Assembly (NCBI RefSeq): GCF_947387555.1
Contig: NZ_CANDNZ010000019.1
Coordinates: forward strand, 1 to 64,000
DNA: 64,000 nucleotides
Origin: Thalassomonas sp. RHCl1
GTDB taxonomy: Bacteria > Pseudomonadota > Gammaproteobacteria > Enterobacterales > Alteromonadaceae
Reading direction: 5' to 3'
Positions 4,881 through 64,000 of this stretch are shown here, piece by piece (position 1 is the first letter of the stretch; each line of letters begins with the position of its first letter). The notes under the pieces were generated by a model. It did not search any database. It worked only from the letters and a program-made list of their open reading frames with translations, and was not told where the DNA came from. The position numbers and the translations under genes are program-made.

Positions 4881-4882
4881 AT

Positions 4883-19557: not shown

Positions 19558-19581
19558 AACATTCCCCCTTGGCCGATGGAC

Positions 19582-31509: not shown

Positions 31510-31610
31510 TCGATAAAAAATCTTCTAACGTTTGATTTTTATGAAATTATTCTTTAGTTAATCTGCTTCGCTTTATACTTTGAAAAATTTGACGAAAGAA
31601 CTCACGAAGC

Positions 31611-31627
31611 TTTTCGCCAGTTGTTTC
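31611..31627 (+). promoter_or_regulatory. Shared 17-bp upstream motif, copy 1
   Basis: TTTTCGCCAGTTGTTTC matches 15 of 17 positions of the motif found upstream of the other S8 transcription units. It lies 102-118 bp upstream of this gene's -24 element, in the opposite orientation relative to transcription. Confidence 0.55.
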
Positions 31628-32239
31628 ATCGTCGGATTTATCGGTGAATTCACCCGGTATGGCGAGCGTCATTTTTTACTTCGCTCGGGCAGGTATTCAT
31701 GGTTTTTTAAACATCTATTTGATTTTACAGGTAGGTTTTTGGCCTAAGTGCCAGGAAATGGCTCGTCAAAATTTTCGTTGGTCACTGTTAGTGCTGGTGT
31801 AGGGTGATGGCTTTTTGCTGATATCTCCTTTACTATAACGGCTTTTATATTGCTCGTCCGGTTGAGGCTAAAATACTTGGTTAATGGCAAAACCTTAAAG
31901 CGCTTAGCGCAGTCGAGATCAGTACTGGCTTGTTTGCTGGTGCTTTTTCTTTGTCGTGAACTTTTTTCCATCTGAAGTCAGCGGGAACCCGGATATTTGC
32001 TATCAAGCTTGTCGTTATTCGCCTCCCCATCCGCCTCCTACCCAAGGCGGGCAAGTATTTATTTAATCGTCCCAAGGGACTCGTGCGATGATTTTGATGC
32101 CGATTTCGCTGTTTGTCCGCCAGTTATCTGATGGTTTTTTGATAGCGGTGCGGTATGCGCGCTTTGTTTAAAGCAAAGTACAGCTAAAAGCGAAGCTGTG
32201 TAGCAAAACATCGCATTATTTTAATATGGAGTATTTTAC

Positions 32240-46280: not shown

Positions 46281-46516
46281 AACTTACTCGGCAAAGCTGG
46301 ACGATAAAAGCTGATCTTATAAGAAACAAGCCCAGATGAAAATGATCAATTTTCTCTGACTGAGGTAAAGATAACTCCCCAGCCGTCAGATTTTTTTGTA
46401 TTTATTCAGAGGGAGCAAGGGGGGCACTGTCTCGTTGGCGGTGCGGGGGCTGGCTGTTCGGGATTAACCCTGAGGTTCGCCGGATATTTCAATCATTATT
46501 TTCTCCGCGGTGAATT

Positions 46517-46533
46517 TTTTCGCAGCTTCTTTC
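46517..46533 (+). promoter_or_regulatory. Shared 17-bp upstream motif, copy 2
   Basis: TTTTCGCAGCTTCTTTC matches the consensus at 15 of 17 positions and starts 156 bp upstream of the -24 element of this operon. Confidence 0.55.
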
Positions 46534-46672
46534 TTTCTTGTCTCCATTTTTTTCTTTTGCCGTATTTTTCGCGGGCAGGAAATCTTTTATTTTTTGCTGC
46601 TCTCCGATAAAACCTATCTATTAAATCAATAGATACAAGTGGTTATAACTTGGAAAAAGTAAATCTCTTCTT

Positions 46673-46689
46673 TTGGCATAAAGCATGTA
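46673..46689 (+). promoter_or_regulatory. Sigma54-like promoter, operon of 46728 and 47222
   Basis: TTGGCATAAAGCATGTA has the -24 GG and -12 G at sigma54 spacing, with GT instead of GC at -12. It lies 39 bp before the ATG, and an AAGGTGG ribosome-binding site follows. Confidence 0.65.
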
Positions 46690-46727
46690 TTAGTCATGAC
46701 GGTGTAACTCGATATAAGGTGGTAACG

Positions 46728-47222
46728 ATGCAGTTTTCTGTTAACAACAAACAATCGACATCGAATACTTGTATGCTCAAAAGTTTGATAGAGGTCTTTT
46801 TTTTCAGTGCCGGGTTTTTGGCCCTTTGCTATTTTATGATCAAGCATGTGCAATATGATCAGGATGAAGCTGATAAGTTCGCGCATCATCCTGCAGTGTC
46901 TTCGGAAATGAAAAACGTGCAGAACGAACAAAGGCCAGCATGGCAGCTGGGATTTGGTCAGAAACTGACGGATATTGTCTTTCCGGTACCAGCCAAGCGC
47001 AGCGCAGAAACTGGTGTTTCCGCTCAGTTGGGCCTTTTACCTTTAAGTCTTTTGGCGGGAAAGGAACATTTTCGTGAATACCTTGGCAGTCAGGCATGCC
47101 TGGGCAAGACGGACACGCAGAGCTGTTTTATACAGAGCAGCTTTTCCCCATTGATCGCGGGATATTTATGGGAAAACAAGCATTTGGAAGCAAGTTTTGG
47201 GCTGATCCGGGAGTCACTATAA
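46728..47222 (+). CDS. Single-span membrane protein co-transcribed with an S8 protease
   Basis: A 164-residue protein of unknown family. A short basic N terminus and one membrane helix (about 22-38, IEVFFFSAGFLALCYFMI) are followed by a soluble domain with two cysteines (SQACLGKTDTQSCF). The first residues (MQFS) and upstream DNA resemble those of the S8 paralogues, as if their promoter and leader had been joined to a different protein. The in-frame extension to 46650 covers promoter DNA and is not a real start; AAGGTGG precedes ATG 46728. Its stop overlaps the protease start in TAATG (47220-47224), so translation is coupled. A chaperone, inhibitor or partner role is only inferred. Confidence 0.75.
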   Translation: MQFSVNNKQSTSNTCMLKSLIEVFFFSAGFLALCYFMIKHVQYDQDEADKFAHHPAVSSEMKNVQNEQRPAWQLGFGQKLTDIVFPVPAKRSAETGVSAQLGLLPLSLLAGKEHFREYLGSQACLGKTDTQSCFIQSSFSPLIAGYLWENKHLEASFGLIRESL

Positions 47223-49606
47223 TGAAACCAAATGTATCCAGAGCTTTTGAACATTTCTTTATAGTGAGAGTTCTCTTGGCGTTTCTGCTGATCGGCGCTT
47301 TTATCTTACTCGCATTGCAACAAAAAACAGAGCATATGTTAACCGAAGCCGAAGCGCCTTTGGGGGGAGCTGTATCACAACCGGCCCCGGCACAGGGTGT
47401 TCAGGAGAAGGCCTGGGAAGGGCGCAGCTACCTGGTGCAGGGGAATTTAAATGAGCTTAAGACCCTGCTGTTAAAAGAAAATATTGAAATAAAACGGGAG
47501 CTGGCGATTATCAGTGCGTTAAGCGTGGTATTAAATAAGCAGCAAAAAAACTGGCTGCAGCGTCAGCCCCAGGTGAAACGCATTTATATCGATCAGAGAA
47601 TGGTTTTAGCGACGGGAGGCAGTAATCTTGAGGAGGTGGCGCCGCAAACCTGTCAGGAATTCTCCATGTTAGACAGCTTCAGCTCAGGTGCCTTTAGCAA
47701 TAATGACGGCACACATCCTTTTGATGGCGACTGGCAGGAGCAGGATCTCAATAGCGGTATGATCAGCGGCGCCTTGAGTGGCAATATCAAGATCAACAAC
47801 CAGGCATTGGAAATCCGTGGTCCTTTCAATCTGGCCGATCCCCAGATCCAACGGGACTTTAGTGTTGCCAATGAAACCTATTTAGAGTTGGGGTTTGATC
47901 TCCAGGCCAGTGCTACCGCCACGGTGAATGATGTGATGCAGCTTTTTCTTATTACCGAAACCGGCACCGTTAAGGTTTTGCAAAGCTTTACCGGGGATAC
48001 CCTGGCTGAAAAACGAAGAATATCTGTTGACTTAACCGGCGATCATCAAAACTATAAAACCTTAGGTTTTCGATTTCCCGGAGGCTTTACCAGCAGAGAG
48101 TCGGCTTTTTTTATCGATAATGTCCAGCTGGTGGTTGATACCGAACATCCCGGAAATTATGCCAGACAACATGCCGGTTTGACTGCGTCCGAAGAGCTTG
48201 ACGGCGCGGGGGTGGGGATTGCCTTTATCGATACCGGCTTATATCTGGGCTATCTGGATGCCATGACGGGCACTGGCGGCATAGGGGCTGTTGGAGAGGT
48301 GAATACTAATGCCGGTGTGATCGAAACCGATGTAAAGCAAATTATTCGCCATAGCGTGATTACCGATGCCAATGCTGATCCTTATAACGATCAGCATGGC
48401 CATGGCTCCCATGTTATTGGCATCGCCACAGGTGATTTTTCCGGCCCCAATAAGTGTGTCGGTAACTTGCAATTCGGGGTGGCGCCTGCTGCGGATGTGA
48501 TCAGTGTTAAGGCATTTGATGCTAACGGCATAGCCAGTTACGGTGATGTGATTGCCGCCCTTGACTGGATATTAACCAACCGGGAGCAATACAATATCAG
48601 GGTGTTAAACTTATCTTTTGGCGGTAAGGTACAGTCCAATTATTGGGATGATCCGGTCAACCAGGCGGTAATGAAACTTTGGCAGGCGGGAGTGACTGTG
48701 GTCGCCTCTGCGGGAAATACTGGTCCGGCTCCCATGACCATTACTGTCCCTGCCAACCTTCCCTATATCATCAGTGTCGGGGCGATCACCAATAATTATA
48801 CCAAGTCATTGACCAGGGATGACAGAATTACCCGGTTTTCTTCTTCCGGGCCCACATATGAAGGTTTTATCAAGCCTGAAATTGTCGCTCCCGGCGGGCA
48901 TATGCTGTCCAATGCCGTACCCGACAGTTATCTTAGCCAGTTATATCCGAAATTTCTCGACCGGGATAATGAGCATTTTATGGTGATGTCGGGAACCAGC
49001 CAGGCGGCCGCGGTTGTTAGCGGGGCGGCAGCCTTGTTATTACAGCAAGACCCGAGCCTGCAACCGGATGATATAAAATGTCGCCTGATGCACAGCGCAA
49101 AGCTGGCGACGCTGGATGACAATAACCTGGCCTACAGCCCTATGCGTCAGGGAGCCGGTAGCTTAAACCTGGCTGCAGCCCTGACCGATACCAGCTATGC
49201 CTGTGCTAATCAGGGCTTGGATATTGAAGCGGACCTTGCCGGATCCGTCCATTATACCGGGCCGGTACGTGCGAATGAGCACGGGGAGTTTTATATCATA
49301 AAGGGTGATGGCAGTATTTGGCACCAGGGGTCGATTTGGAATGAGGGCTCTATCTGGAATGAGGGCTCTATCTGGAATGAGGGGTCTATCTGGAATGAGG
49401 GTTCTATCTGGAATGAAGGTTCTATCTGGAATGAGGGTTCTATCTGGAATGAGGGTTCTATCTGGAATGAAGGCTCTATCTGGAATGAGGGCTCTATCTG
49501 GAATGAGGGCTTTATCTGGAATGAGGGTTTTATCTGGAATGAAGGTTCACTGTGGAATGAAACTGTGCTCCCTATGAGCCTGCAACAGATACCTGAGCAG
49601 GAATAA
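47222..49606 (+). CDS. S8 serine protease with jelly-roll-like insert and WNEG repeats
   Basis: A 794-residue protein. Membrane anchor or signal at 12-32; I9-like propeptide at about 68-130 (RSYLVQGNLNELKTLLLKEN). A beta-rich domain at about 144-306, starting CQEFSMLDSFSSGAFSNNDG and ending SAFFIDNVQLVVD, resembles MAM/jelly-roll modules. The subtilisin domain has Asp337 (FIDTG), His394 (HGHGSHVIG), Asn499 (SAGN) and Ser593 (SGTSQAAAVVSG). The KCRLM/CANQGLDI cysteine pair is present. Fourteen W-hexads fill about 700-783 (one WHQG, twelve WNEG, one WNET). The end is PEQE, lacking the Trp-Val of the other paralogues. Translation is coupled to the upstream gene. It is probably exported and self-processed. 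Confidence 0.93.
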   Translation: MKPNVSRAFEHFFIVRVLLAFLLIGAFILLALQQKTEHMLTEAEAPLGGAVSQPAPAQGVQEKAWEGRSYLVQGNLNELKTLLLKENIEIKRELAIISALSVVLNKQQKNWLQRQPQVKRIYIDQRMVLATGGSNLEEVAPQTCQEFSMLDSFSSGAFSNNDGTHPFDGDWQEQDLNSGMISGALSGNIKINNQALEIRGPFNLADPQIQRDFSVANETYLELGFDLQASATATVNDVMQLFLITETGTVKVLQSFTGDTLAEKRRISVDLTGDHQNYKTLGFRFPGGFTSRESAFFIDNVQLVVDTEHPGNYARQHAGLTASEELDGAGVGIAFIDTGLYLGYLDAMTGTGGIGAVGEVNTNAGVIETDVKQIIRHSVITDANADPYNDQHGHGSHVIGIATGDFSGPNKCVGNLQFGVAPAADVISVKAFDANGIASYGDVIAALDWILTNREQYNIRVLNLSFGGKVQSNYWDDPVNQAVMKLWQAGVTVVASAGNTGPAPMTITVPANLPYIISVGAITNNYTKSLTRDDRITRFSSSGPTYEGFIKPEIVAPGGHMLSNAVPDSYLSQLYPKFLDRDNEHFMVMSGTSQAAAVVSGAAALLLQQDPSLQPDDIKCRLMHSAKLATLDDNNLAYSPMRQGAGSLNLAAALTDTSYACANQGLDIEADLAGSVHYTGPVRANEHGEFYIIKGDGSIWHQGSIWNEGSIWNEGSIWNEGSIWNEGSIWNEGSIWNEGSIWNEGSIWNEGSIWNEGSIWNEGFIWNEGFIWNEGSLWNETVLPMSLQQIPEQE
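49319..49564 (+). repeat. 18-bp coding repeats, 14 W-hexads
   Basis: Fourteen units of 18 bp, core TGGAATGAGGGYTCTATC, nearly identical to one another. Two units have Phe for Ser (TTT for TCT). High DNA identity implies recent expansion or gene conversion. Confidence 0.93.
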
Positions 49607-49630
49607 GCGGTTGTCAGGATAAAAGATGGT

Positions 49631-49657
49631 ATTAAAGAGCCCACAGGGCTCTTTAAT
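49631..49657. terminator. Perfect 12-bp hairpin after S8 protease
   Basis: ATTAAAGAGCCC and GGGCTCTTTAAT form a perfect stem around loop ACA. Only A/T base pairs flank it, with no separate T-run after it. It may terminate or partly attenuate transcription into the small gene that follows. Confidence 0.7.
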
Positions 49658-49694
49658 ACCCGGGTTAAGGCTGTTTAAGCAAGCGGGAGTTATT

Positions 49695-49859
49695 ATGCTA
49701 AAACATAACAGACTGCGTCTATGCCAGTTTTTAGACGAAGAAGATGATGCAATAATGTCCGGGATAAGCCGGCTCATTTATTCATTCGTTATCTTCGCCA
49801 TCTTTTTTATGATTGGTGCGACCATTTTTTTCCATAAAAAGTTTCACTACCTGACATAA
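49695..49859 (+). CDS. Small single-span membrane protein, 54 aa
   Basis: A short protein: basic N terminus (MLKHNRLRLCQFL), an acidic patch DEEDD, one membrane helix (about 25-43, LIYSFVIFAIFFMIGATIFF) and a basic end. GGGAG lies 5 nt before ATG 49695, which I prefer over ATG 49626 because the latter starts inside the hairpin region. Not recognised. It lies between two S8 genes on the same strand and may be expressed by read-through. Confidence 0.6.
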   Translation: MLKHNRLRLCQFLDEEDDAIMSGISRLIYSFVIFAIFFMIGATIFFHKKFHYLT

Positions 49860-49881
49860 CTTTCAATTTATTCATCAATAA

Positions 49882-49898
49882 TTTCAACCACTTTTTTC
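49882..49898 (+). promoter_or_regulatory. Shared 17-bp upstream motif, copy 3
   Basis: TTTCAACCACTTTTTTC matches the consensus at 13 of 17 positions, the weakest copy. It starts 146 bp upstream of the -24 element at 50028. Confidence 0.4.
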
Positions 49899-50027
49899 AT
49901 TTTATCGGTGGCCCGCCGGTAAAGTCAGCATAGCGTACAGTTACCTTGCTCGGGTAAGTTCTTGTATTGTGTGATATATCAATCACTTAGTTTTGCTTAT
50001 TGCCAATAGCATTGTTTTTATTCTTTA

Positions 50028-50044
50028 TTGGCATAAAGCGTGTA
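50028..50044 (+). promoter_or_regulatory. Sigma54-like promoter of the 50083 protease
   Basis: TTGGCATAAAGCGTGTA differs from the 46673 element at one base. It lies 39 bp before the ATG, with AAGGTGG following. Confidence 0.65.
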
Positions 50045-50082
50045 TTAGCCATGGAGACGTAAACTCAACAAAGGTGGTTAGT

Positions 50083-52581
50083 ATGTTTTTTTCACTTGAT
50101 AAAAATACGTTGTTACTGATTAAAAATAATAAATTACTCTTTGCTATTGGTCTTATTTGTTTGCTCGGTTGCGCCTTGTTGCTTTTTGATACCAGTTCGG
50201 GGATGCATGGTAAAGCAAATAAGCTGGAATCCTATCAGGTGAAAGTGCCGATATTTGAAGATACCGGCGGAGGTACTGACAGGAGCTCCTACCTTATTCA
50301 GGGCCACAGCCTGGACGAAATAATGGCAATTGCTGCTAGGTTCCAACTTGATGTGACCCACAAACTAGGTTCGATCAATGCCCTGGCGGTGACCATGGAT
50401 TTAGCTACTTATAAACAGTTGCAACAGCTGCCGGGTATTATCCGTATGCAGAAAAATACTAAAAATCTGAGTGTTACGGCTAAAGGTGACAGGAAAGGCG
50501 ACGGCAAAGGTGACAGAAAAGGCGACGGCAAAGATGACAGGAAAGGCGACGGCAAAGGTGACAGGAAAGGCGACGGCAAAGATGACAGGAAAGGCGGCGG
50601 CAAAGATGACAGGAAAGGCGGCGGCAAAGATGACAGGAAAGGCGGCGGCAAAGGTGACAGGAAAGGTGGCGGCAAAGATGACAGGAAAGGCGACGGCAAA
50701 GATGACAGGAAAGGTGGCGGCAAAGATGACAGGAAAGGCGGCGGCAAAGGTGATGATGACGGAAACGTACATGCGATGTTTTTGGGGTCTTCAGAGGCTG
50801 AAAATATCGGTGGTGAGCCCTTTTTACTTTTTAGCGGTAACAGCAGCAGCTGGAAAGTGATTAACCGTGCCGGCGTCAGTTTTGCTTTAAGCTCGATAGA
50901 ACTGGCCTGGCCGCTGGAAAACGGCTCTTTGATGCAGTTTAGTACCAGTAATGGCCTGCAGCTGGATACCTCTGCTTTAACTTTTGGCAGTGACAGCAGC
51001 CATATGTACCTGACTTTAACCCCGTCGATGCTGGGCAGTGATGCCTCCCTGGCTGCAAATCATAGTTTTACCTACGATTTGTCATTTCAACATGTACCTT
51101 CGAGTGCTTCCGCACAATATCAGTTTAAATTAACTTTTGCCGGAGACAGCTCGGTGAAAGAGTATATTGACGGTCAGGGGAGTTTGCTGCCAAACGATAA
51201 CAGTGTTTACCGCGATACTTTTTATACCGGTATGGTCAATGCCGATATTTTACAGCAGCAAGGGATCACTGGGCTCGGGGTGACCGTGGCGGTGCTTGAC
51301 ACCGGCTTACGTGCAGATCCTGAATGGTCAATACAATATCTGGCACAAGGGGGCAATCGCATCAAAGCTTTTTATAATGCCATAGACGATACCCTGGTTG
51401 ATACTGCTGCCTTTGATCTCAGTGATGCCGAGCAGGGCAATCTTTTGCAGGACGGGCATGGACACGGTACCCATGTCAGCTCTATTATCGCCCGGGCATT
51501 ACCTGAGCTGGATATCAACACCGGTGAATTCACCGGTACTTATAACGGTATCGCACCTAATGTCAACCTGGTATCGGTGAAAGCACTTGACAGCAGTGGT
51601 CAGGGCACGTACGCCGATGTGATCCGCGGTATCGATTTTGTTATCGCCAATAAAGATCTGTACAACATCCGGGTGTTGAATATGTCGCTCAGTGCCGGGG
51701 TACAATCCCATTACTGGGATGATTTCCTTAATCAGGCGGTAATGCGCGCCTGGCAGGCGGGAATAGTCGTGGTTGCATCTGCCGGTAACAGCGGACCAGA
51801 TGCCATGACCATAGGCGTACCGGGCAATGTACCTTATGTGGTGACTGTAGGGGCAGTGTCAGACAACTATTCTGTTACCGATAACAGTGATGATTTTCTT
51901 GCCACTTTTTCTGCCGCAGGACCGACTTATGAAGGCTTTGTTAAACCTGAGCTGGTTGCCCCCGGTGGCCATATACTCGGCTATATGCACCCGAGCGCCT
52001 ACATACCGGGTAATTATCCCAGTTTTGCTGACGGCCAGGGCTGGTTTATGATGTCGGGCACTTCACAGGCGGCGGCGGTTGTGTCCGGTATTGCTGCCCT
52101 GGTGTTGGAGCAAGACCCGAGTTTAACTCCGGATGAGGTGAAATGTCGCTTGATCAGTGCCGGTAATCCGGCATTAAACGGCCAGGGGGATCTGGCGGTA
52201 AGCATTTTCCAGCAGGGCAGCGGATTAATTGATGCTTATGAGGCGGTTTATTCTTCGGCAACTGCTTGTGCCAATCAGGGACTGGATATTGATGCCGACC
52301 TTGCCGGTACCAGTCATTTTGGCGGCCGGGCCAACCAGGATGCCGATGGTAATTATTATATTGATGGTGTCGAAGGCAGTGGTTACTTATGGGCGGATGG
52401 CTATCTGTGGGCAGATGGTTATTTGTGGGTTGACGGGTATCTGTGGGTTGACGGTTACTTGTGGGCAGACGGTTATTTATGGGCTGACGGTTATTTATGG
52501 GCTGATGGCTATCTGTGGGTAGATGGTAATATTCAGGCCAGTGGCAGTATACAACCGAATGTTTGGGTAGGCCAAGAGTAA
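50083..52581 (+). CDS. S8 serine protease with YLWADG repeats and long charged linker
   Basis: An 832-residue protein. Membrane helix at about 18-36; I9-like propeptide at about 68-128. A DRKG(D/G)GK(D/G) octapeptide array (136-223) is followed by a beta-rich insert at about 240-370 (EPFLLFSGNSSSWKVINRAG, ALSSIELAWPLENG). The catalytic domain has Asp406, His461 (HGHGTHVSS), the SAGNSGPDAM oxyanion segment and Ser661 (MSGTSQAAAVVSG). The KCRLI/CANQGLDI cysteine pair is present. Eight YLW(A/V)DG units span 768-815 and the end is PNVWVGQE. I start at ATG 50083: the frame upstream runs through the promoter DNA. It differs from its relatives mainly in the octapeptide linker. Confidence 0.93.
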   Translation: MFFSLDKNTLLLIKNNKLLFAIGLICLLGCALLLFDTSSGMHGKANKLESYQVKVPIFEDTGGGTDRSSYLIQGHSLDEIMAIAARFQLDVTHKLGSINALAVTMDLATYKQLQQLPGIIRMQKNTKNLSVTAKGDRKGDGKGDRKGDGKDDRKGDGKGDRKGDGKDDRKGGGKDDRKGGGKDDRKGGGKGDRKGGGKDDRKGDGKDDRKGGGKDDRKGGGKGDDDGNVHAMFLGSSEAENIGGEPFLLFSGNSSSWKVINRAGVSFALSSIELAWPLENGSLMQFSTSNGLQLDTSALTFGSDSSHMYLTLTPSMLGSDASLAANHSFTYDLSFQHVPSSASAQYQFKLTFAGDSSVKEYIDGQGSLLPNDNSVYRDTFYTGMVNADILQQQGITGLGVTVAVLDTGLRADPEWSIQYLAQGGNRIKAFYNAIDDTLVDTAAFDLSDAEQGNLLQDGHGHGTHVSSIIARALPELDINTGEFTGTYNGIAPNVNLVSVKALDSSGQGTYADVIRGIDFVIANKDLYNIRVLNMSLSAGVQSHYWDDFLNQAVMRAWQAGIVVVASAGNSGPDAMTIGVPGNVPYVVTVGAVSDNYSVTDNSDDFLATFSAAGPTYEGFVKPELVAPGGHILGYMHPSAYIPGNYPSFADGQGWFMMSGTSQAAAVVSGIAALVLEQDPSLTPDEVKCRLISAGNPALNGQGDLAVSIFQQGSGLIDAYEAVYSSATACANQGLDIDADLAGTSHFGGRANQDADGNYYIDGVEGSGYLWADGYLWADGYLWVDGYLWVDGYLWADGYLWADGYLWADGYLWVDGNIQASGSIQPNVWVGQE
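50488..50751 (+). repeat. 24-bp minisatellite, 11 copies
   Basis: Eleven units of GACAGGAAAGGCGRCGGCAAAGRT encode DRKG(D/G)GK(D/G) between the propeptide and the insert domain. The paralogue at 58122 has only a short GKGGGKGGGK stretch at the same place, so this array expanded in one copy. Confidence 0.93.
52384..52527 (+). repeat. 18-bp coding repeats, 8 x YLW(A/V)DG
   Basis: Eight units of 18 bp encode TyrLeuTrp(Ala/Val)AspGly. Third-position variation (TTA/TTG/CTG for Leu) shows moderate divergence. Confidence 0.92.
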
Positions 52582-52890
52582 GCTTTCGTTTTTAATGGTT
52601 CGTGCAACTAAGGTGTCCCGGATTTAAAGGAGTAAATGAAAGCAGTAAAGTGCGGTAAATGTTAACGGAATTAATTTTCGGACTTATTTGGTTTTCTGAT
52701 TTAGTTTTAAGCATGTGCCGTACTTTTCCCTCCCTTTGAGCTTTCTCCTGAAATAAGAAAGCTGACCCGCAATTTCCTTGCATGCCTTATTAAGTTTGTG
52801 CTCTGCTAATGAGTGACTGTTATTACATTCTATTAAGCGCAATTTTTTAAATGTCTAGAGTAAATTTTTGATTTTCATCCGCATTTATCT

Positions 52891-52907
52891 TGTTCGCCAC
52901 ATCTTTC
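52891..52907 (+). promoter_or_regulatory. Shared 17-bp upstream motif, copy 4
   Basis: TGTTCGCCACATCTTTC matches the consensus at 15 of 17 positions and starts 174 bp upstream of the -24 element at 53065. More TTTCG-type stretches follow to about 52975. Confidence 0.55.
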
Positions 52908-53064
52908 ACTGCACTCATCTGTTTCGTAATTCTTTTCGTAGTTTTTTTCGTTATTTTTTTCATTATTTTTTAAGCACCGGAGATACATTTCCTTGCGGCA
53001 TTGCTTGATGGTATAAGTTCTTTAAAAACAGGTTGCTATGTGTTTTTTATGTTTCTGTAAGTAA

Positions 53065-53081
53065 TTGGCGTAAAACCTGTA
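53065..53081 (+). promoter_or_regulatory. Sigma54-like promoter of the 53119-55368 operon
   Basis: TTGGCGTAAAACCTGTA keeps the -24 TTGGC and -12 TGTA of the other copies. It lies 37 bp before ATG 53119. Confidence 0.62.
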
Positions 53082-53118
53082 TTACCTCCTTTAGATGTAA
53101 ATAATTGAGGTCATCATT

Positions 53119-55362
53119 ATGGAATTATTTGATAGCAGCAAACGGTTGATTTTTAATAGATCTGTTTTTAAGGCGGGCATGGGCGTTTTTTTGTTCACTA
53201 TGTTGTTGTATATGCTGGCAATATATAATCAAAAGTCTCAGGAGGAAGGTGCTTTTTTACCGTCAGCAGCAACTGCTGAGCAGGCATCCTTTATCATTCA
53301 GGGGAGCAGTATGGCCGAACTGCTGACGATAGCTGAGAAATTGCAATTAGCTGTCAGCCATGAGCTGGTAATGATCAATAGTCTGGCTGCAGATCTCACT
53401 TATAGTCAGTTTATACAATTGAAACAGCTGCCGCAGGTCACCGCCTTAATCCGTAATGGCCAGGTGCGGGCGAGCGGAAAGGTCAAGGGAGGCGGCGAAT
53501 ATGCAGATGATAGTATTTCAGCTATGCAGGGATTTAGCGGGTTATCAGTGACAGCCACTGAGATAAGCGGCAATATCTCAGCTTATCTGAAAACAGAGCC
53601 TTTCCTGACGTTCATTCATAAAAAAATGGATTTAGGCGTACGTAATACCGGTAATGACAAATTAGAGATTGACCGTATTGAAATGCGCTGGCCGAAGAAA
53701 AATGGCCGCATGCTTAAATTTTCTGTATTAAACAGTCCTTTGACTAATGGCGTGGTCGAGCCGGGTGAACTCAGCGCCGATGGCTTATATTACACCAATG
53801 TGATCCCGGGGACGGCTTTAAAGAAACAAAAAGCGCTGCGAGCCGGCGTGGATAAATATTTTCAATGGACGTTTGAGCACAGGCCTGCGAATAACATGAC
53901 CAAATATCAGGTTCGCTTTCACCTGAGTGATGGCAGCTATGGCCAATATACGTTTGGCGAAGGCATGATGTTACAGGGACGTGATCGGGATACTTTCTTT
54001 CCTACTGTAGTGGCTGCCGATAAGGTGCACCGTGAGGGGCTTACCGGTGCCGGTGTAACCATTGCGGTGATCGACAGCGGTTTATCCCGGGATAACAATT
54101 TGCAGTTTGATATCGGCGGTAATAACCGCCTGGCAGCGGTTTATGATGCGGTTGGTGATAAATTAACCGACACTGCTTTGTTGGATACGAACACGTTTAG
54201 CGCCCTTGTCCGTTCCGGTATTGTCGACGATGACGGCTTTGGTCACGGCGCCCATATCGCTTCGGTGATGGCCCATTCAAAGGAAGGCCTGGACATTGCC
54301 ACAGGGGAGAGCAGTGGTTCATTTAATGGTATCGCCCCCAATGCCCGGCTGTTAGTGATCAAAGCCCTTGACGATAACGGTAACGGCAGTTATGCCGATG
54401 TGATCCGCGGTATCGAATTCATTATTAACAACAAAGATAAATATAATATCCGGGTACTCAACCTTTCTCTCAGTGCCCCGGTTAAATCCCATTACTGGCA
54501 AGATCCTTTAAACCAGGCGGTAATGCGCGCCTGGGCTGAAGGCATAGTGGTAGTGGCGTCTGCCGGTAATAATGGCCCGGATCCCATGTCGATCGGCGTG
54601 CCGGGCAATGTCCCTTATGTGATCACGGTCGGGGCGATGACAGATAGTTTCACGCCGACAGATACCAGCGATGACAAGCTGGCAAGTTTTTCATCATCAG
54701 GCCCTACCTATGAAGGTTTTGTCAAACCGGAAGTGATGGCCCCCGGAGGGCATATTCTCGGTAGCATGAATAAAAACTCCTATCTGGCAACCGCTCACCC
54801 TGAATATCATGATCTCAACCGGTGGTTCATGATGTCGGGCACTTCCCAGTCGGCGGCGGTTGTCTCGGGCAGTGTTGCCCTGATGTTGGAGCGCAATCCG
54901 GAGCTCACCCCGGATGATGTGAAATGCCGCTTGATGATGAGCGCTAATCCGGCACTTGATGAGCAAGGCCAGCTGGCAATCAGTATTTTTCAGCAAGGCA
55001 GCGGCTTAATTGATGTCTCTAAGGCGATAGATAACCTGGCCTTTGGCTGTGCCAACCAGGGGCTGGATATCAATGCGGATATTGCCGGAGAGCAGCATTT
55101 TGGCGGCAGGAGCCGTCAGGATGAAAATGGCGACTTTTATATTAGCGGCCTTGAGGGCACGGGCTATGTCTGGGCAGACGGTTATGTCTGGGCGGACGGT
55201 TATGTCTGGGCGGACGGTTATGTCTGGGCGGACGGTTATGTCTGGGCGGACGGTTATGTCTGGGCAGACGGTTATGTCTGGGCGGACGGTTATGTCTGGG
55301 CGGACGGTTATGTCTGGGCAGATAGTCAAATCTCTTCCAATATCTGGGTGTCACAGGAGTAA
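53119..55362 (+). CDS. S8 serine protease with YVWADG repeats
   Basis: A 747-residue protein. N-terminal membrane helix (about 20-36); propeptide at about 53-118 (ASFIIQGSSMAELLTIAEKL); Gly/Lys linker; beta-rich insert at about 150-275 (EPFLTFIHKKMDLGVRNTGN, IDRIEMRWPKKNG). The catalytic domain has Asp319 (VIDSG), His376 (DGFGHGAHIAS, with Ala in place of the usual Thr/Ser), SAGNNGPDPM and Ser576 (MSGTSQSAAVVSG). The VKCRLM/GCANQGLDI pair is present. Nine YVWAD(G) units fill 683-736 and the end is NIWVSQE. It is followed after 5 bp by another S8 gene, so the two form an operon. Confidence 0.92.
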   Translation: MELFDSSKRLIFNRSVFKAGMGVFLFTMLLYMLAIYNQKSQEEGAFLPSAATAEQASFIIQGSSMAELLTIAEKLQLAVSHELVMINSLAADLTYSQFIQLKQLPQVTALIRNGQVRASGKVKGGGEYADDSISAMQGFSGLSVTATEISGNISAYLKTEPFLTFIHKKMDLGVRNTGNDKLEIDRIEMRWPKKNGRMLKFSVLNSPLTNGVVEPGELSADGLYYTNVIPGTALKKQKALRAGVDKYFQWTFEHRPANNMTKYQVRFHLSDGSYGQYTFGEGMMLQGRDRDTFFPTVVAADKVHREGLTGAGVTIAVIDSGLSRDNNLQFDIGGNNRLAAVYDAVGDKLTDTALLDTNTFSALVRSGIVDDDGFGHGAHIASVMAHSKEGLDIATGESSGSFNGIAPNARLLVIKALDDNGNGSYADVIRGIEFIINNKDKYNIRVLNLSLSAPVKSHYWQDPLNQAVMRAWAEGIVVVASAGNNGPDPMSIGVPGNVPYVITVGAMTDSFTPTDTSDDKLASFSSSGPTYEGFVKPEVMAPGGHILGSMNKNSYLATAHPEYHDLNRWFMMSGTSQSAAVVSGSVALMLERNPELTPDDVKCRLMMSANPALDEQGQLAISIFQQGSGLIDVSKAIDNLAFGCANQGLDINADIAGEQHFGGRSRQDENGDFYISGLEGTGYVWADGYVWADGYVWADGYVWADGYVWADGYVWADGYVWADGYVWADGYVWADSQISSNIWVSQE
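55165..55326 (+). repeat. 18-bp coding repeats, 9 x YVWADG
   Basis: Nine units TATGTCTGGGCRGACGGT, almost identical at DNA level; only one A/G position varies, and the last unit has AGT for GGT. This is the most homogeneous of the six arrays. Confidence 0.95.
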
Positions 55363-55367
55363 CTTTT

Positions 55368-57785
55368 ATGAAATTCATTTTACCTGAGTTTTTCTGCCGA
55401 AAACGCCGCTTTTCCCGGGGCAGTTGTTTATTTGCAAGCTTGTTAGCTGGTTTTGCTCTATTTTGCCTGTTGCAACCTGGGCAGGGAAAAGGGCTGATTC
55501 AAGAGCTCAATACTCAAGTGTCTAAGTTTGCTTCTTTGACGGTTACTGGAGCTGATAGTGCAGTAAAGAAAACACAGCGCTATCTGGTGCAGGGAAAAAG
55601 TGTCGATCGCATTACCCGTTTGCTCAGGGAAAGCGAGTTACCTGTGCTCAAAACCCTGGGCATTATTAATGCGGTTGGCACTGAGCTGACCGCGGCGCAA
55701 AAAAACAAGCTGGCGCAACTCAGTCCAGGATTGGTTTTTTATCAGGATCGGCTACTGGCTTTGGCGGGTAAAGGTAATGGTGGAGCATCAGTTTCCGGGG
55801 GCAGTTGCGAACTCGATTTTGATGTGTTCGACAGCTTTAGCAGTATCAGTTATGGTAATCATGATGGTGTTGATCGCTGGCAAAGCAAATGGTGGGAATG
55901 GGAGCCGGATAATAGCTATGGTGCCGACAATGGCCATATCCGTATTGATAACGGTGCTCTGGCATTTATCCCTAACCAGGGGGGCGGTTGGATCAGCCGT
56001 CAGGTAGCCTTGCCGAGAAACACCGAGTCTTTGATGTTAACCTTTGATTTTGTACTGGCGGGGCTGGCGGAGGATGAAGAGTTAACCGTACTGTTTAGCG
56101 CTGATAGTGTTAATTTTGATGAGCTTGATACCCTGACCCCGAAAAAGAGCGGCTTATCGGGGAAACGTACTTACCATGTCAGCCGCTATGCGGGTATTGG
56201 CGGCCAGTTACGTTTTGAGCTGGCATCTGAGCCGCAAAGCGCTGACCAGGGCTATTTTGCCATAGATAACGTGCACTTTTATAAAGATCCCGGCCATATG
56301 CCGGCTTATCTGACCATGCAAACCGGTGCCAATAAGTTGCATCAGCAGGGAATTACCGGGCAGGGCATTAATATTGCCATACTTGATACCGGTAGTTTTA
56401 GCAATGAAAGCATAGGCGGCCAAGGTGATAACAGGATCATCGATAGCTTAAATCTTTTAGGTGATGACAGAGAAGATGTGCAGGATCTACATGGGCATGG
56501 CAGTCATGTTGCCAGTGTTATCGCCAGCAGTTATGCCAGCTCTGAGTTTGATTTAACAAGCTGCACCGGCCAGGTCAATGCCCAGGGTATGGCGCCGGGA
56601 GCTGGCCTGGTTTTGGTGCGCGCCTTTGATGATTTAGGACAGGGCAGTTATATGGATGTTATTGCCGGTATTGATTATGTGGTCAATAATGCCGAGCAGC
56701 TTAATATCCGGGTATTGAATCTGTCATTTGGCGCACAGCCCCGCTCCCATTACTGGGATGACCCCTTGAACCAGGCTGTGATGAAGGCCTGGCAGGCGGG
56801 GATTGTGGTGGTGACCTCTGCCGGCAATACCGGTCCGGTACCGGGTTCTATCACGGTACCGGGAAATGTGCCCTATGTGATCACAGTAGGTGCTACCACC
56901 AATGCCTATACGCCTTATGATAACAGCGATGATCACCTGACATCCTTTTCGGCGTCGGGGCCGACGCTGGAAGCCTTTGTTAAGCCGGATCTCCTGGCGC
57001 CGGGGGGCCATTTGCTGGGGATGATGCACAGCAAATCAACCTTTGCCAGTGAGCACCCGGGTTTTAGTGACGGTAAAAAATTTTTTGTGATGTCGGGTAC
57101 TTCACAGGCGGCTGCCGTTGTCAGTGGTGCTGCCGCGTTATTATTGCAAGCCGAGCCTGAACTTACCCCGGATGATGTTAAGTGCCGGTTGATGCATAGC
57201 GCCAAGCTGGCGGTGGCAGAGAATGGCTTATTGCGTTATTCGCCGTTTCAGCAGGGGGCGGGATTGGTGGATATTTACGCCGCCAGCCAGAGTGATATCT
57301 CCGGCTGTGCCAACCAGGGATTAGCTATTAATGCCGATCTTGACGGCAGGGAGCATTTTCAGGGGCCGGCGCTGATTGATGAAAACGGTCGCTTTGCCCT
57401 GCCTGCTCCGGATGGCAGCGTATGGAACGAAGGTTCGATGTGGAACGAAGGTTCGATGTGGAACGAAGGTTCGATGTGGAACGAAGGTTCGATGTGGAAC
57501 GAAGGTTCGATGTGGAACGAAGGTTCGATATGGAACGATGGTTCGATGTGGAACGAAGGTTCGATGTGGAACGAAGGTTCGATATGGAACGATGGTTCGA
57601 TATGGAACGAAGGTAGTATTTGGTATGAGGGATCTGTTTGGAATGAGGGCAGTATCTGGTATGAAAGTTCATTGTGGAACGAAGGCTCTATCTGGTATGA
57701 AGGCTCGTTTTGGAACGAAGGCTCAGTTTGGAATGAGAGCAGCTCCGGTGTTATGGGGGTTAACTCCTGGGTAGATCAGGAATAA
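55368..57785 (+). CDS. S8 serine protease with jelly-roll-like insert and long WNEG array
   Basis: An 805-residue protein. N-terminal hydrophobic segment (about 20-36); propeptide at about 70-130 (RYLVQGKSVDRITRLLRESE). A jelly-roll-like insert at about 145-305 starts CELDFDVFDSFSSISYGNHD and ends GYFAIDNVHFYKD, clearly related to that of the 47222 protein. The catalytic domain has Asp340 (ILDTG), His377 (HGHGSHVAS), TSAGNTGPVPG and Ser579 (MSGTSQAAAVVSG). The VKCRLM/GCANQGLAI pair is present. Eighteen W-hexads (WNEG, WNDG, WYEG, WNES, WYES) fill 685-792, and the end is NSWVDQE. AGGAG in the tail of the upstream gene serves as ribosome-binding site, 5 bp gap. Confidence 0.93.
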   Translation: MKFILPEFFCRKRRFSRGSCLFASLLAGFALFCLLQPGQGKGLIQELNTQVSKFASLTVTGADSAVKKTQRYLVQGKSVDRITRLLRESELPVLKTLGIINAVGTELTAAQKNKLAQLSPGLVFYQDRLLALAGKGNGGASVSGGSCELDFDVFDSFSSISYGNHDGVDRWQSKWWEWEPDNSYGADNGHIRIDNGALAFIPNQGGGWISRQVALPRNTESLMLTFDFVLAGLAEDEELTVLFSADSVNFDELDTLTPKKSGLSGKRTYHVSRYAGIGGQLRFELASEPQSADQGYFAIDNVHFYKDPGHMPAYLTMQTGANKLHQQGITGQGINIAILDTGSFSNESIGGQGDNRIIDSLNLLGDDREDVQDLHGHGSHVASVIASSYASSEFDLTSCTGQVNAQGMAPGAGLVLVRAFDDLGQGSYMDVIAGIDYVVNNAEQLNIRVLNLSFGAQPRSHYWDDPLNQAVMKAWQAGIVVVTSAGNTGPVPGSITVPGNVPYVITVGATTNAYTPYDNSDDHLTSFSASGPTLEAFVKPDLLAPGGHLLGMMHSKSTFASEHPGFSDGKKFFVMSGTSQAAAVVSGAAALLLQAEPELTPDDVKCRLMHSAKLAVAENGLLRYSPFQQGAGLVDIYAASQSDISGCANQGLAINADLDGREHFQGPALIDENGRFALPAPDGSVWNEGSMWNEGSMWNEGSMWNEGSMWNEGSMWNEGSIWNDGSMWNEGSMWNEGSIWNDGSIWNEGSIWYEGSVWNEGSIWYESSLWNEGSIWYEGSFWNEGSVWNESSSGVMGVNSWVDQE
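57420..57743 (+). repeat. 18-bp coding repeats, 18 W-hexads
   Basis: Eighteen units of 18 bp. The first eleven are nearly identical (TGGAACGAAGGTTCGATG, some with GAT for GAA) and the last seven are more diverged. This suggests expansion at the 5' side of the array. Confidence 0.94.
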
Positions 57786-57817
57786 TTTCCTTAATCTTTC
57801 TTCATCAATTATTGGAT

Positions 57818-57843
57818 GAGCCCCCGCTGATGAGCGGGGGCTC
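57818..57843 (+). terminator. Terminator after the two-gene S8 operon
   Basis: GAGCCCCCGCT (57818-57828), loop GATG, AGCGGGGGCTC (57833-57843): a perfect GC-rich 11-bp stem, followed by TATTGTT. Confidence 0.8.
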
Positions 57844-57910
57844 TATTGTTGATTTTCAGCGCTGTTAACAGTGCATGTTTTGTTTTCGTCGTATGTTTCA
57901 GTTCCATTTG

Positions 57911-57947
57911 TTTTCGCCACTTCTTTCGCCACTTCTTTCGCCACTTT
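57911..57947 (+). promoter_or_regulatory. Shared 17-bp upstream motif, copy 5, in a 12-bp tandem triplet
   Basis: TTTTCGCCACTTCTTTC (57911-57927) is taken as the consensus. The core TTTCGCCACTTY is repeated three times in tandem at 12-bp intervals (57912, 57924, 57936), 157 bp upstream of the -24 element at 58068. Confidence 0.6.
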
Positions 57948-58067
57948 TTTATGATTGGCTTGCTTGAGGGGTTATGCGTGATCTGAGCCTTAAAATTTCA
58001 ATTCAAACAAAGGTGAATAGTCTTTTAAATCAAGTTGCTATCATTTTGCGCTAATAGCTTACTGTTA

Positions 58068-58084
58068 TTGGCATAAAAAGTGTA
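58068..58084 (+). promoter_or_regulatory. Sigma54-like promoter of the 58122 protease
   Basis: TTGGCATAAAAAGTGTA, same layout as the other copies, 38 bp before the ATG with GGAGGTGG in between as ribosome-binding site. Confidence 0.65.
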
Positions 58085-58121
58085 CAACCTTTGCTGATGA
58101 AAATTCAATGGAGGTGGAAGT

Positions 58122-60428: not shown

Positions 60429-60777
60429 AGGCTGAAATCATCTGTGCGTTAGCTGTGACTGATGCTTGTCGTCAGTGATGACACCAGTGCTTTTATATTG
60501 TAAAAGCAGCTACATTTTTTGGGAGCAACAGACCTTAAGGGCTGTTGCTCCTTTTTTGGCCTTTTTCCGCTTGAGTGGCTTATTTGTCAGGATTTCTTCC
60601 CTTTGGGGATATAGCAAGTGCTGGAAATAGCAAACAAAGTGTTAAATAAAATTTATTGGCGCCAGTAAAACGCAAAATCTCTACATCTGCACTACACTCT
60701 TGTTAGCAGACGAATAATAAACTTTTTCATGCGAATCAATCTTTAATCACGTACTAATTATCGTTAAATAACGGACT
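60429..60777. other. Spacer between last S8 gene and activator gene
   Basis: 349 bp containing a strong terminator at 60522-60557. I do not see a sigma54 element or the 17-bp motif here; TTGGCGCCAGTAAAACGC near 60656 has the wrong -24/-12 spacing. Confidence 0.5.
60522..60557 (+). terminator. Terminator after last S8 gene
   Basis: GGAGCAACAG (60522-60531) pairs with CTGTTGCTCC (60542-60551) around a 10-nt loop, followed by TTTTTT. Confidence 0.9.
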
Positions 60778-63700
60778 ATGACACATAGAATTTATATCAT
60801 TGAAGATGAAGCAATAGTTGCACATGATTTAAAGGTCAACCTTGAATCTCTCGGTTTTCAAGTACTTGGTGTTGCCCACGATAGTCTCAAAGCGCTGCAG
60901 GAGATCCCTGTGGTCAAACCGGATATTGTCTTGTCTGATATCCGGCTGCGTGACGGCTGCGATGGCATCGAAATTTTGCGTGAGCTCAATAAAGTCATGT
61001 CGGTGGCGGTGATTTTTATTTCCGCTTATTCCGATAAAGAAACCCTAAGAAGAGTCAAGGAAATCAATCCCCAGGGTTATATTCTTAAACCCATTAATCG
61101 TCGGGAGCTGGAAATTGCCATCGACCTGGCGGTGGATGAATTTGCCAGGCAGCAGAAACTCCTTAATAATCAGTACATTCTAAAAACAGCTTTGAGCTGT
61201 ATCGGTGACTGTATCTTATTAACCGATATTAACGGTTTTATCGACGGTATCAACTCCAATGCCTGCCAACTGCTGACCTTTGAAAGCGCCAATGTCATCC
61301 TGAAACCCTGGCATACCGCACTGGTCTGTACCACCCCTGAATCTAAACTGCGTCTGACTCGTTTGATTGAAAATACCGTCAGGACCCAGTCGGTCAGCAG
61401 GATCTTACCGGTTGAAATTGAAGTTAAAAATGGCATTTCCCTGGTAGACGGTATCGTCGGCCCCATTATCAATGAACAACAAGAGTGCACCGGGGCATCC
61501 ATTATGCTCAGGTGCCTGGCGGATTTGTCGGACTTTAAAATGCCTGAATATAAAAACCGGGTATCTGACCGCCAGAGGGAAGAGAAAAGCCAGGCCTGTT
61601 TATTATTGATCAACCCGGATAATTTTGACTGGGTCAATGAGAAATGGGGCGAGAAGGTCGGGGATGTCATCATCGGTGAAATCAGCGAGGTGATCAATAA
61701 AGAAATCCGGGTGATAGATCTGGCTACCCGTTATGGCGGCGCAGTATTTAGCACGACTTTACCCAATACCTGCCTGCAGGGGGGCATGGTGGTGGCCAGG
61801 CGTATTCATGAGCGCTTGAATAATCACAGGTATTATAGCGACAAGGTGTCGCTGACCTTCAGCATAGGTATTGCTGAATTAGAGCAAGGTAATGATGCCA
61901 GCGGCATTAATTTACCGATCACCCTGTTCAGACATGCTACCTGGGCGTTAAATACCGCCCATGAAGCCGGGGGGGATTGTATTCGTTGCTGGGAGGAAGA
62001 CAAACAGCATCATTTTCTCGCTGATATTGACCGTATGAGCGGTAAGTTTTCCCCTGATATCAATAATGACATTAAGGGCTTGATGTTGTTGTGGAATTCG
62101 GTAAATACCGTTGTCCACTGTACTGATATCCACTCCTTATCCGAAGGCATAGTCAGCAATTTGATGCAGTCTCTGCAGCTTGTCGCCGGCGCCTTCTGGT
62201 TGAAACTCGATAATGAACCGGTGGAGTTGATTGTCAAGGATATCAATACCGAGTTATATCCCCTTGATCCAGAAGACTTTAGTTTTAAACTTACCCCGCA
62301 AATCAATGAGCTGGCCTTTAGCGGCGAAACGAAACTTTTTTCCGTCGACAGCGACAACCCGGAGCATATCTGCTGTTATGGATTGCCGCTCAGCGTCGAG
62401 CACAGGGGGTTGGGTTTGTTGCTGTTATACCGCAAGAGCGGGCATCTGTTGGATAAAAAACAGATTTCGGCGCTGGAGACTTTGTCGGGTTATTTAGGGG
62501 TCGCCGTTGACCGGGTGATTTTAGCCTCGAAAGAGCAGTTGCGTATTCAAAAAGAATTACAGGGATTTGAAGAAAATGTACTCGACAGCGAGTTGATATT
62601 CGAGTCTACAATCATGGAGTCCTTAATGCAGGAGGTCAGGACGCTGGCGCCTACCGATGCACCTGTGATGATTTCCGGCGAATCGGGCACAGGCAAAGAG
62701 TTGCTGGCGCGCATGATACACAAGGTCAGTTTACGCAAACATAAGCCTTATGTGGTGGTGGACTGTGGGGCGATAGTACCGAGTTTGATTGCCAGTGAGC
62801 TCTTTGGCCACAAAAAGGGGTCATTTACCAACGCCAATGAATCCCATTTAGGAAAATTTAAAGAAGCGGATACCGGTACGCTGTTTTTAGATGAAATCGG
62901 TGAATTGCCGTTGGAGCTGCAAATTCACTTGCTGCGTTTTGCCCAGGAAGGCACTTTTTCTCCGGTGGGCAGCAACCAGGTGGAAACGGTGGATGTCCGC
63001 CTGATTGTCGCCACCAACCGGGATTTAGCCACCGAAGTAGAAAAAGGGCGTTTTCGTAAGGATTTGTTCTACCGTCTTAATGTTTTTTCACTGCACAGTC
63101 CTAATTTACGGCAAAGGGCGATGGATATTATGCCGATAGCCGAGCATTACCTGCGTCAGTTCAACCAGCATTATAACAAAGAAATTAAAGGTTTTACCGA
63201 AACGGCAAGCCGGGCGATGCGCCAGCACGACTGGCCGGGCAATGTCCGCGAGCTTAGAAACCAGTTGATGCGGGCGGTGATTATTTGCAACAGCCCTTAT
63301 ATCGATGCCACCCATCTGACGCTGCGGGAGCCGAGTCATCGCTGGGAATGTTCTTTTAATGACAATGCCGAGGGAGGAAGCGGACAGTCAGCAGTAAGCA
63401 ATATGGCAGATTTTTCTGCTGCTGAAGCACAGGGACATAAAGTCGCCGATATCGGCGTACAGCCACAGGATAAAATGGTGCAGGCACTGACCTCTTGCAT
63501 CAATATTTTAAAAGACAGTGATGCTATTTTTGAATGCGGTAAATGGCTTGAAGCGGAAGTGATCCGCTTAGCCAAGGTACAAGGTAAAGGCAATATCAGT
63601 AAGTCAGCCCGTATCCTGGGGTTACCGGAAGCCACTTTACGGCGCCGTATCGAGGCCTTATCCCAAAGTGCCTTGCCGCCGGTTTTGCAGGTTCAGGAGT

Positions 63701-63882
63701 TTTTGTTGGTGGAGGCGTTAACCGACTGGCTTGAACTGCCGCCAACGCCCGGCATCAACCGCCTGCAACAGTTAAGGCAAATATTAAGCCGCTTGGCGGA
63801 GCAGGGGGGGATGAACCGGCAGGATATTGCAACCTTTGTCGGGGTTTCCGCCCCGACCTTGCGCAAGATATTAGCCAGTTGA
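60778..63882 (+). CDS. Sigma54-type activator with REC, PAS-like, degenerate GGDEF, GAF and AAA+ domains
   Basis: A 1034-residue cytosolic regulator. The receiver (1-120) has the acidic pair at 9-10, phospho-acceptor Asp54 (VLSDIRL) and Lys104 (ILKP). A PAS-like segment (about 135-245) is followed by a GGDEF-fold region (about 270-410) with YGGAVF for the active site, hence probably inactive. A GAF-like domain (about 430-590) precedes the AAA+ domain (about 605-850): Walker A GESGTGKE (634-641), GSFTNA (681-686) in place of GAFTGA, Walker B LFLDE (Asp705-Glu706), and RFRKDLFYRLN with the arginine finger. A Fis-like HTH (about 937-965) and a second HTH at the extreme C terminus (RQDIATFVGVSAPTLRKIL) follow. 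No histidine kinase is adjacent. It is a candidate controller of the neighbouring sigma54-like promoters (inference). Confidence 0.9.
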   Translation: MTHRIYIIEDEAIVAHDLKVNLESLGFQVLGVAHDSLKALQEIPVVKPDIVLSDIRLRDGCDGIEILRELNKVMSVAVIFISAYSDKETLRRVKEINPQGYILKPINRRELEIAIDLAVDEFARQQKLLNNQYILKTALSCIGDCILLTDINGFIDGINSNACQLLTFESANVILKPWHTALVCTTPESKLRLTRLIENTVRTQSVSRILPVEIEVKNGISLVDGIVGPIINEQQECTGASIMLRCLADLSDFKMPEYKNRVSDRQREEKSQACLLLINPDNFDWVNEKWGEKVGDVIIGEISEVINKEIRVIDLATRYGGAVFSTTLPNTCLQGGMVVARRIHERLNNHRYYSDKVSLTFSIGIAELEQGNDASGINLPITLFRHATWALNTAHEAGGDCIRCWEEDKQHHFLADIDRMSGKFSPDINNDIKGLMLLWNSVNTVVHCTDIHSLSEGIVSNLMQSLQLVAGAFWLKLDNEPVELIVKDINTELYPLDPEDFSFKLTPQINELAFSGETKLFSVDSDNPEHICCYGLPLSVEHRGLGLLLLYRKSGHLLDKKQISALETLSGYLGVAVDRVILASKEQLRIQKELQGFEENVLDSELIFESTIMESLMQEVRTLAPTDAPVMISGESGTGKELLARMIHKVSLRKHKPYVVVDCGAIVPSLIASELFGHKKGSFTNANESHLGKFKEADTGTLFLDEIGELPLELQIHLLRFAQEGTFSPVGSNQVETVDVRLIVATNRDLATEVEKGRFRKDLFYRLNVFSLHSPNLRQRAMDIMPIAEHYLRQFNQHYNKEIKGFTETASRAMRQHDWPGNVRELRNQLMRAVIICNSPYIDATHLTLREPSHRWECSFNDNAEGGSGQSAVSNMADFSAAEAQGHKVADIGVQPQDKMVQALTSCINILKDSDAIFECGKWLEAEVIRLAKVQGKGNISKSARILGLPEATLRRRIEALSQSALPPVLQVQEFLLVEALTDWLELPPTPGINRLQQLRQILSRLAEQGGMNRQDIATFVGVSAPTLRKILAS

Positions 63883-64000
63883 GGTTCGGTTATGCTGGCT
63901 TAAGGGTGGTGATAATTTGTTATTTGTTGATGTACCAGGCTGAAGTAAAAGTATTAAGGATGTGAATATTCGTTATGATCATGATTAATTTAACAATACC
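63883..64000. other. 3' end of the window
   Basis: 118 bp after the activator stop. No gene, terminator or other feature is recognised. Confidence 0.4.

Follow-up and report, generated by a model that had tools for sequence, protein, structure and literature searches.

A probable sigma54 regulon of tryptophan-repeat S8 proteases and its candidate GGDEF-AAA+ activator in Thalassomonas sp. RHCl1

In the PEP-CTERM PrsK/PrsR system, the genes for surface or secreted proteins are scattered, and upstream of each stand a motif for the activator and a -24/-12 element; the phylogenetic profile of this DNA element matches one sigma54 activator and a kinase (PMC1569441). One PEP-CTERM gene was later reported to be RpoN-regulated (PMC9850573). 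The system is the closest in design to the one described here: a probable regulon of S8 proteases with tails of tryptophan hexads (W-repeat proteases), found in a 64-kb stretch of Thalassomonas sp. RHCl1 DNA (the window), with the product of the gene at 60778 as its candidate activator. The two systems differ in their parts. The 60778 protein scores 305.9 bits with the PrsR model TIGR02915, below its cut-off of 502.6; the targets are W-hexad S8 proteases and the sensors are beta-propeller proteins. Two S8 proteins scanned with NCBIfam and Pfam gave no match to the PEP-CTERM sorting signal, for which no dedicated search was made.

With NorR/NtrC-type enhancer-binding proteins, 60778 shares the Sigma54_activat domain, Walker motifs, lid and a helix-turn-helix (HTH). 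It departs from them in the degenerate GGDEF domain that precedes its AAA+ domain, in its pair of C-terminal HTH segments, and in scoring under the cut-off of each named NCBIfam activator compared. From Bacteroidetes, hybrid two-component systems are known whose sensor domains are Reg_prop/Y_Y_Y. They too combine propeller and Y_Y_Y sensors with kinase output beside secreted-enzyme genes; here, in contrast, the neighbours are proteases, and the outputs are GGDEF, HisKA_2, a hybrid kinase or, at one locus (L313), a sigma54 AAA+ domain. The open-licence literature, short of its full texts, yielded no description of the W-repeat protease family or its regulator.

We estimate at about 0.8 the probability that the W-repeat S8 proteases and a few other genes form a dedicated sigma54 regulon under 60778. 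The basis of this reading is the sequences, their statistics, gene order and co-occurrence across genomes.

Five -24/-12 elements precede protease units in the window (Table 1). Rechecked directly, they have the positions and sequences that the initial annotation had given them. In the 7.56-Mb genome of the strain, which has a single rpoN gene, the pattern TTGGCRYAAANNNTGTA has seven exact matches: six stand before W-repeat S8 genes, the seventh (C6) before a haem-oxygenase-like/cupin gene. With up to one mismatch it is found 20 times, against 7 for the reversed pattern, and the generic TTGGCAYN6TGYW pattern 50 times against 16. GG at -24 and the ten-base spacing are present in all ten regulon promoters of this genome.

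A 17-mer upstream of these elements had also been reported, and its best matches of 15, 15, 13, 15 and 17 at 31611, 46517, 49882, 52891 and 57911 were reproduced. Matches of at least 14/17 occur six times on the two strands of the window, always inside the five promoters; after shuffling of the same promoter stretches in two-base blocks, the observed best match was equalled in 0-2% of 300 trials each. Two of the sites stand in part. That at 31611 has its 15 matches but points opposite to its promoter, with a same-strand site at 31581-31596; that at 49882 has its 13 matches but is weak, and a better site lies at 49794. Gibbs sampling over 12 promoters (seven from this genome, two from G001, two from G002 and one from G054, of another genus) gave the refined motif TTCGYCANNTNTTTCA in 12/12, at 17.7 bits against 11.5-11.9 in four shuffled sets. 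Several sites per promoter are common, for example three copies at 12-bp steps in 57911-57951. We then built a matrix from seven own-genome sites and applied it to other promoters, where it scored 20.5 (L076), 17.0 (L077), 19.2 (L082), 17.0 (L087), 20.3 (L088, 4543) and 12.7 (L083); most regulon sites reach 17-22. Among 231 upstream windows of other genes, seven score at least 11, of which three are regulon promoters and the other four stay at or below 13.7.

Motif and element occur together chiefly at S8/W-repeat genes, the enrichment for which the initial annotation had proposed a genome scan, here made over the matches listed for the strain's own genome. TTCGYCANNTNTTTC has 19 exact matches, 11 in sigma54-promoter regions and 8 within open frames. 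Nine lie 87-186 bp 5' of an element, spread over seven promoters (one each in C2, C6, C9 and C20, and 31493, 53065 and 58068 in the window); two are reversed, in the same intergenic stretches as the C6 and 31493 matches. The C9 match overlaps a seemingly spurious 208-residue frame, and one of the eight in-frame matches (L111) has a poor element-like match. Among 30 of the 38 matches to a looser motif pattern, seven (L191-L194, L204, L208, L216) are promoters already named and three (L189, L195, L214) have poor element-like matches. From the other side, 30 of the 50 TTGGCAYN6TGYW sites were scored for the motif (four window elements are among the 20 left out): it reaches 13 only at the promoter in C6 and at two of the proteases in C2, and the promoter before a FliE-like gene, so identified from its letters, scores 12.0. 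In the three sister genomes that form the genus set with ours (G001-G003), 18/43 exact motif matches precede an element, two further G001 matches with poor element-like matches being excluded from the 18. The genes behind these elements are proteases, a C6-type enzyme (G002), a small C9-type protein (all three) and an unknown 110-residue protein (G001).

Nine W-repeat S8 genes are present in the genome, and eight of them are served by seven motif-element promoters. The ninth (C1, L073) has neither element nor site, as is the case for similar copies in G001-G003. The initial annotation was right on five protease promoters in the window, but the protease genes number six: the 53119 and 55368 genes are 5 bp apart, so that five promoters serve six genes. 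Likewise, the 46673 unit has its element but opens with a 164-residue frame, the protease following from about 47222. Three further promoters with the motif-element pair precede other genes, which makes the regulon somewhat wider than the proteases: an enzyme in C6 resembling CADD, BesC and cupin models (all below cut-off), a small protein in C9 (80 residues in G002), and a C20 operon for an RND_mfp adaptor and LEPR-XLL/VCBS proteins. In L217 (6972-12604 and 13048 onward), an array of motif sites and a -24/-12 element stand before genes for an adaptor and giant LEPR-XLL/VCBS proteins.

The second line of evidence is co-occurrence. In a panel of 98 genomes including ours, the protease family (E<=1e-40) is found in 22, and the activator in eight at E<=1e-100 plus G049 at 5e-93. 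In all nine activator genomes, one protease gene or more has a -24/-12 element close to its start (e.g. G025 at -107, G054 at -52). No element was accepted before protease genes in the 13 genomes without activator (14 loci) or before the second G054 copy, where the best scores are 0-11.0. Accepted elements score 11.0-15.0, and the non-activator score of 11.0 is a TGGG match over a start codon; the two ranges touch, so that sequence and place decided there. In each of the four genus genomes the activator gene, there 60778 itself, neighbours the protease cluster; in each of the five positive genomes outside the genus (G012, G025, G049, G054, G055) it is no more than 10 kb away from a protease gene. 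It is from co-occurrence that 60778 is proposed as the regulator. The initial annotation had proposed to test whether the upstream motif accompanies orthologues of 60778; across genomes the elements before protease genes do so, but the motif itself is firm only within the genus, with a variant in G054, a genome from outside it.

A wider scan took the best 80 of 440 matches, giving 79 loci from named records, mostly of Gammaproteobacteria, with several Acidobacteriota and three Chloroflexota metagenome-assembled genomes. A protease frame was called in 75 loci, 44 of which have a propeller-sensor protein; 11 loci have a GGDEF-type activator, L313 (a fusion) and L329 being counted as without. Elements scoring at least 13, in a scheme that favours C at -12, precede 8/13 protease genes in activator loci against 12/71 elsewhere (p = 0.0017) and 20/576 other genes. 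By locus, the figures are 7/11 against 12/59 (p = 0.0066), with three of the wider-set loci from Aliiglaciecola, and L329 and L335 possibly overlapping G012:C4 and G035:C21 of the panel. The scan thus agrees with the 22-genome comparison, more weakly.

Where the activator is missing, the protease promoters have other and weaker patterns in common (13.99 bits; shuffles 11.1-12.0). In L090-L103 and L106, which have no activator, GCTGGATNTTTTT stands far upstream and ACCCTAATGTTTTTAAA near -50 in several protease promoters; these are perhaps sites of another regulator. An AraC-type hybrid regulator, its domains checked in L092, is labelled by similarity in six wider-set loci, one of which (L335) is seemingly the contig of L092.

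In 60778, the domain scan recognises REC, GGDEF, the AAA+ sigma54-interaction domain (PF00158, 9.7e-66), its lid and a final HTH, with PAS and a Fis-type HTH just below cut-off; no GAF domain was recognised there, while L307 has one. Across 14 aligned relatives, the Walker motifs GESGTGKE and LFLDEIGE are invariant or nearly so and both C-terminal HTH segments are conserved. The catalytic GG(D/E)EF motif is replaced by YGGAVF in 60778 and by FGGALF or similar in relatives, although Pfam still recognises the domain, whose role is probably in sensing or dimerisation.

Table 1. Positions of the promoter elements, upstream sites and genes of the candidate regulon in the window.
Feature	Position	Strand	Remarks
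-24/-12 element TTGGCACAGGAAATGCT	31493-31509	-	its end 45 bp 5' of first ATG
-24/-12 element TTGGCATAAAGCATGTA	46673-46689	+	its end 38 bp 5' of first ATG
-24/-12 element TTGGCATAAAGCGTGTA	50028-50044	+	its end 38 bp 5' of first ATG
-24/-12 element TTGGCGTAAAACCTGTA	53065-53081	+	its end 37 bp 5' of first ATG
-24/-12 element TTGGCATAAAAAGTGTA	58068-58084	+	its end 37 bp 5' of first ATG
Upstream site TTCGTCAAATTTTTCA	31581..31596	-	de novo motif, 31493 promoter
Second upstream site TTCGCCAGTTGTTTCA, 29693 promoter	31613..31628	+	orientation opposite to promoter
Upstream site TTCGCCGGATATTTCA	46476..46491	+	de novo motif; weaker site of the initial annotation at 46517-46533
Upstream site TTCGCCATCTTTTTTA	49794..49809	+	de novo motif; weaker site of the initial annotation at 49882-49898
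Upstream site TTCGCCACATCTTTCA	52893..52908	+	de novo motif
Array of upstream sites	57885..57951	+	57885, then 57911, 57923, 57935 (register of the initial annotation), 12-bp steps
W-repeat S8 protease, 584 aa	29693..31447	-	Peptidase_S8 1.4e-46; hexad W tail, WVDQE end
164-residue frame, first gene of 46673 unit	46728..47222	+	open reading frame
W-repeat S8 protease	47096..49606	+	start more likely 47222
W-repeat S8 protease	50083..52581	+	open reading frame and family similarity
W-repeat S8 protease	53119..55362	+	open reading frame and family similarity
W-repeat S8 protease	55368..57785	+	5 bp after 53119 gene, one transcription unit with it
W-repeat S8 protease, 768 aa	58122..60428	+	Peptidase_S8 1.7e-43
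Sigma54 activator, 1034 residues	60778..63882	+	REC, weak PAS, degenerate GGDEF, AAA+ (loop GSFTNA), two C-terminal HTH segments
Next gene, beta-propeller/Y_Y_Y/GGDEF protein	63975..64000 (start; continues past the window, L071 976-4326)	+	domain scan

A structure model of the 29693 protease, built from 25 sequences, has a mean predicted local distance difference test score of 68.7. The catalytic region is mostly at 75-98 and the W tail (503-584) at about 24, with no confident fold. In the proteases of L270-L348, tail hexads are near-identical inside one protease and different between proteases (GYLWTD, GTSWNE, SMLWAD and others), with a shared C-terminal NxWVxQE; the pattern suggests within-gene homogenisation of the repeats. 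One protease copy of G002 (C1:4284989-4285651, in L080) has an internal stop. Elsewhere in the window, a single frame at 42599-43750 joins GTP cyclohydrolase II and NADAR domains, and the minus strand holds a very long frame of 3247 residues (4883-14626) and one of 1442 residues with six Glucodextran_B stretches and Ig-like domains (15310-19638).

Several observations weigh against a regulon under 60778. The motif shows no global excess: with up to one mismatch it has 179 genome matches against 243 reversed, so that the signal is positional only, and the looser pattern gives 38 against 28. Six intergenic matches among the 30 examined (L197, L200, L203, L206, L209, L210) have no element. Two promoters of the genus are weak by matrix (8.6 at L075 6543, 11.3 at L086 9067). 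The G054 promoter (L068) has variant sites only, with a score of 14.2, and none of five exact motif matches in that genome is at an element; outside the genus, scores fall to 9.3 in L067 of G025, 10.9 in L070, 6.4 in L105 and 2.3-3.5 in L069 and L104, and G012, G049 and G055 show no motif above shuffles. Most window elements carry GT at -12, as do seven of the ten own-genome regulon promoters (GC in three), and the activator loop reads GSFTNA in our genome and G001-G003, against GAFTGA in G012, G025, G049, G054 and G055. Element and activator are associated over the 22 genomes with a Fisher p of 2e-6, a value that, like those of the wider scan, ignores kinship, four of the nine positive genomes being of one genus. 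Lastly, the wider scan has exceptions both ways: an element is missing from 5/13 protease genes of activator loci and present at the 12/71 elsewhere. A replacement motif for G012, G049 and G055 was also sought; the candidates, at 12.4 bits (shuffles 12.0-13.1) and 15.5 bits (shuffles 14.2-15.8), were rejected.

The alternative that survives best accepts the -24/-12 elements as real and gives the motif to another protein, such as a second activator, a repressor or a bending protein, with 60778 serving other targets. The genome encodes at least 23 strong sigma54 activator domains, three genomes (G012, G049, G055) have activator and elements and yielded no such motif, and the pairing of 60778 with the motif is read from sequence. 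We nevertheless consider it unlikely: 60778 or its relatives keep to the neighbourhood of the proteases in all nine genomes, and the elements are absent where the GGDEF-AAA+ activator is absent, although other activators exist in those genomes.

It is very unlikely that the TTGGC...TGTA blocks are some other conserved element, alike because protease genes were duplicated together with the DNA in front of them. Several of the proteases are indeed paralogues at 40-70% identity, and the frequent GT at -12 would fit; yet canonical GC forms occur at 31493, C9, C20 and in elements of genomes outside the genus, the same motif-element pair stands before the unrelated genes of C6, C9 and C20, the generic element pattern has 50 matches against 16 reversed, and the elements co-occur with a sigma54 activator. 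That the motif arose by chance or from the base composition of T-rich upstream DNA is hardly credible, since, T-rich and without global excess as it is, composition-keeping shuffles and the other upstream windows score far below most regulon sites.

In sigma54 systems, an activator that sits 80-200 bp 5' of the -24/-12 element implies that the DNA loops and that ATP drives the opening. For the regulon under 60778, we infer that RNA polymerase with RpoN would wait at the elements while 60778 would bind TTCGYCANNTNTTTCA sites, one or several per promoter, some 85-235 bp 5' of them. Its AAA+ domains would form a ring and open the promoters that drive the W-repeat S8 proteases and the few other genes, whose transcription should then depend on RpoN. 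The receiver domain of 60778 would probably be switched by a beta-propeller/Y_Y_Y histidine kinase. After 60778, the downstream run (L071) encodes the propeller-GGDEF protein, a propeller-HisKA_2 kinase (4323-7937) and a REC-PAS-GGDEF-EAL protein; the kinase is the likely partner because it is encoded in this run. In L067 (G025), a protease, a propeller hybrid kinase, a REC-GGDEF-EAL protein and the activator follow in this order on one strand. In L313 (4449-8894), beta-propeller, Y_Y_Y, PAS and sigma54 AAA+ domain (loop GAFAGA) are joined in one protein, which immediately follows a W-repeat protease and is cut off by the end of the contig.

The GSFTNA loop need not mean lost function, because a NorR variant with Asn at the second glycine of GAFTGA, the residue found in 60778, still forms open complexes; it is fully constitutive, with lower ATPase activity (PMC2941729). 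According to a review, the GAFTGA loop is positioned to contact DNA bases near -12 (PMC7057263). In our genome, three of the 23 or more activator loops are unreadable, and the 20 readable ones are GAFTGA (11), GAYTGA (3), GAFTDA (3), GAFSGA, GSFTGA and GSFTNA (1 each); in the wider set, 9/11 are GAFTGA and 2/11 GAYTGA. GT at -12 occurs in 7/10 own-genome regulon promoters against 0/20 elements scoring at least 13 in the wider scan, where the scoring favours C. Co-adaptation of loop and -12 base stays a guess because of this scoring, because the genus is one lineage, and because GAFTDA occurs in three other activators of the same genome. A broader conjecture, and a doubtful one, is a rewired self-contained circuit in which propeller sensors would read the neighbouring W-hexad proteases or their products, the output would pass, depending on the lineage, through either the GGDEF-AAA+ activator or an AraC-type hybrid regulator, and the GSFTNA loop of the genus would be co-adapted to GT at -12.

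Should the regulon hold, the secreted proteases with tryptophan-hexad tails, a widespread family, would gain, in one strain, a probable regulator, its binding motif and probable sensors. It would be a second clear case, beside PEP-CTERM, of scattered surface or secreted proteins forming a sigma54 regulon of one activator, and may offer a natural test case for the interplay of activator loop and -12 base.

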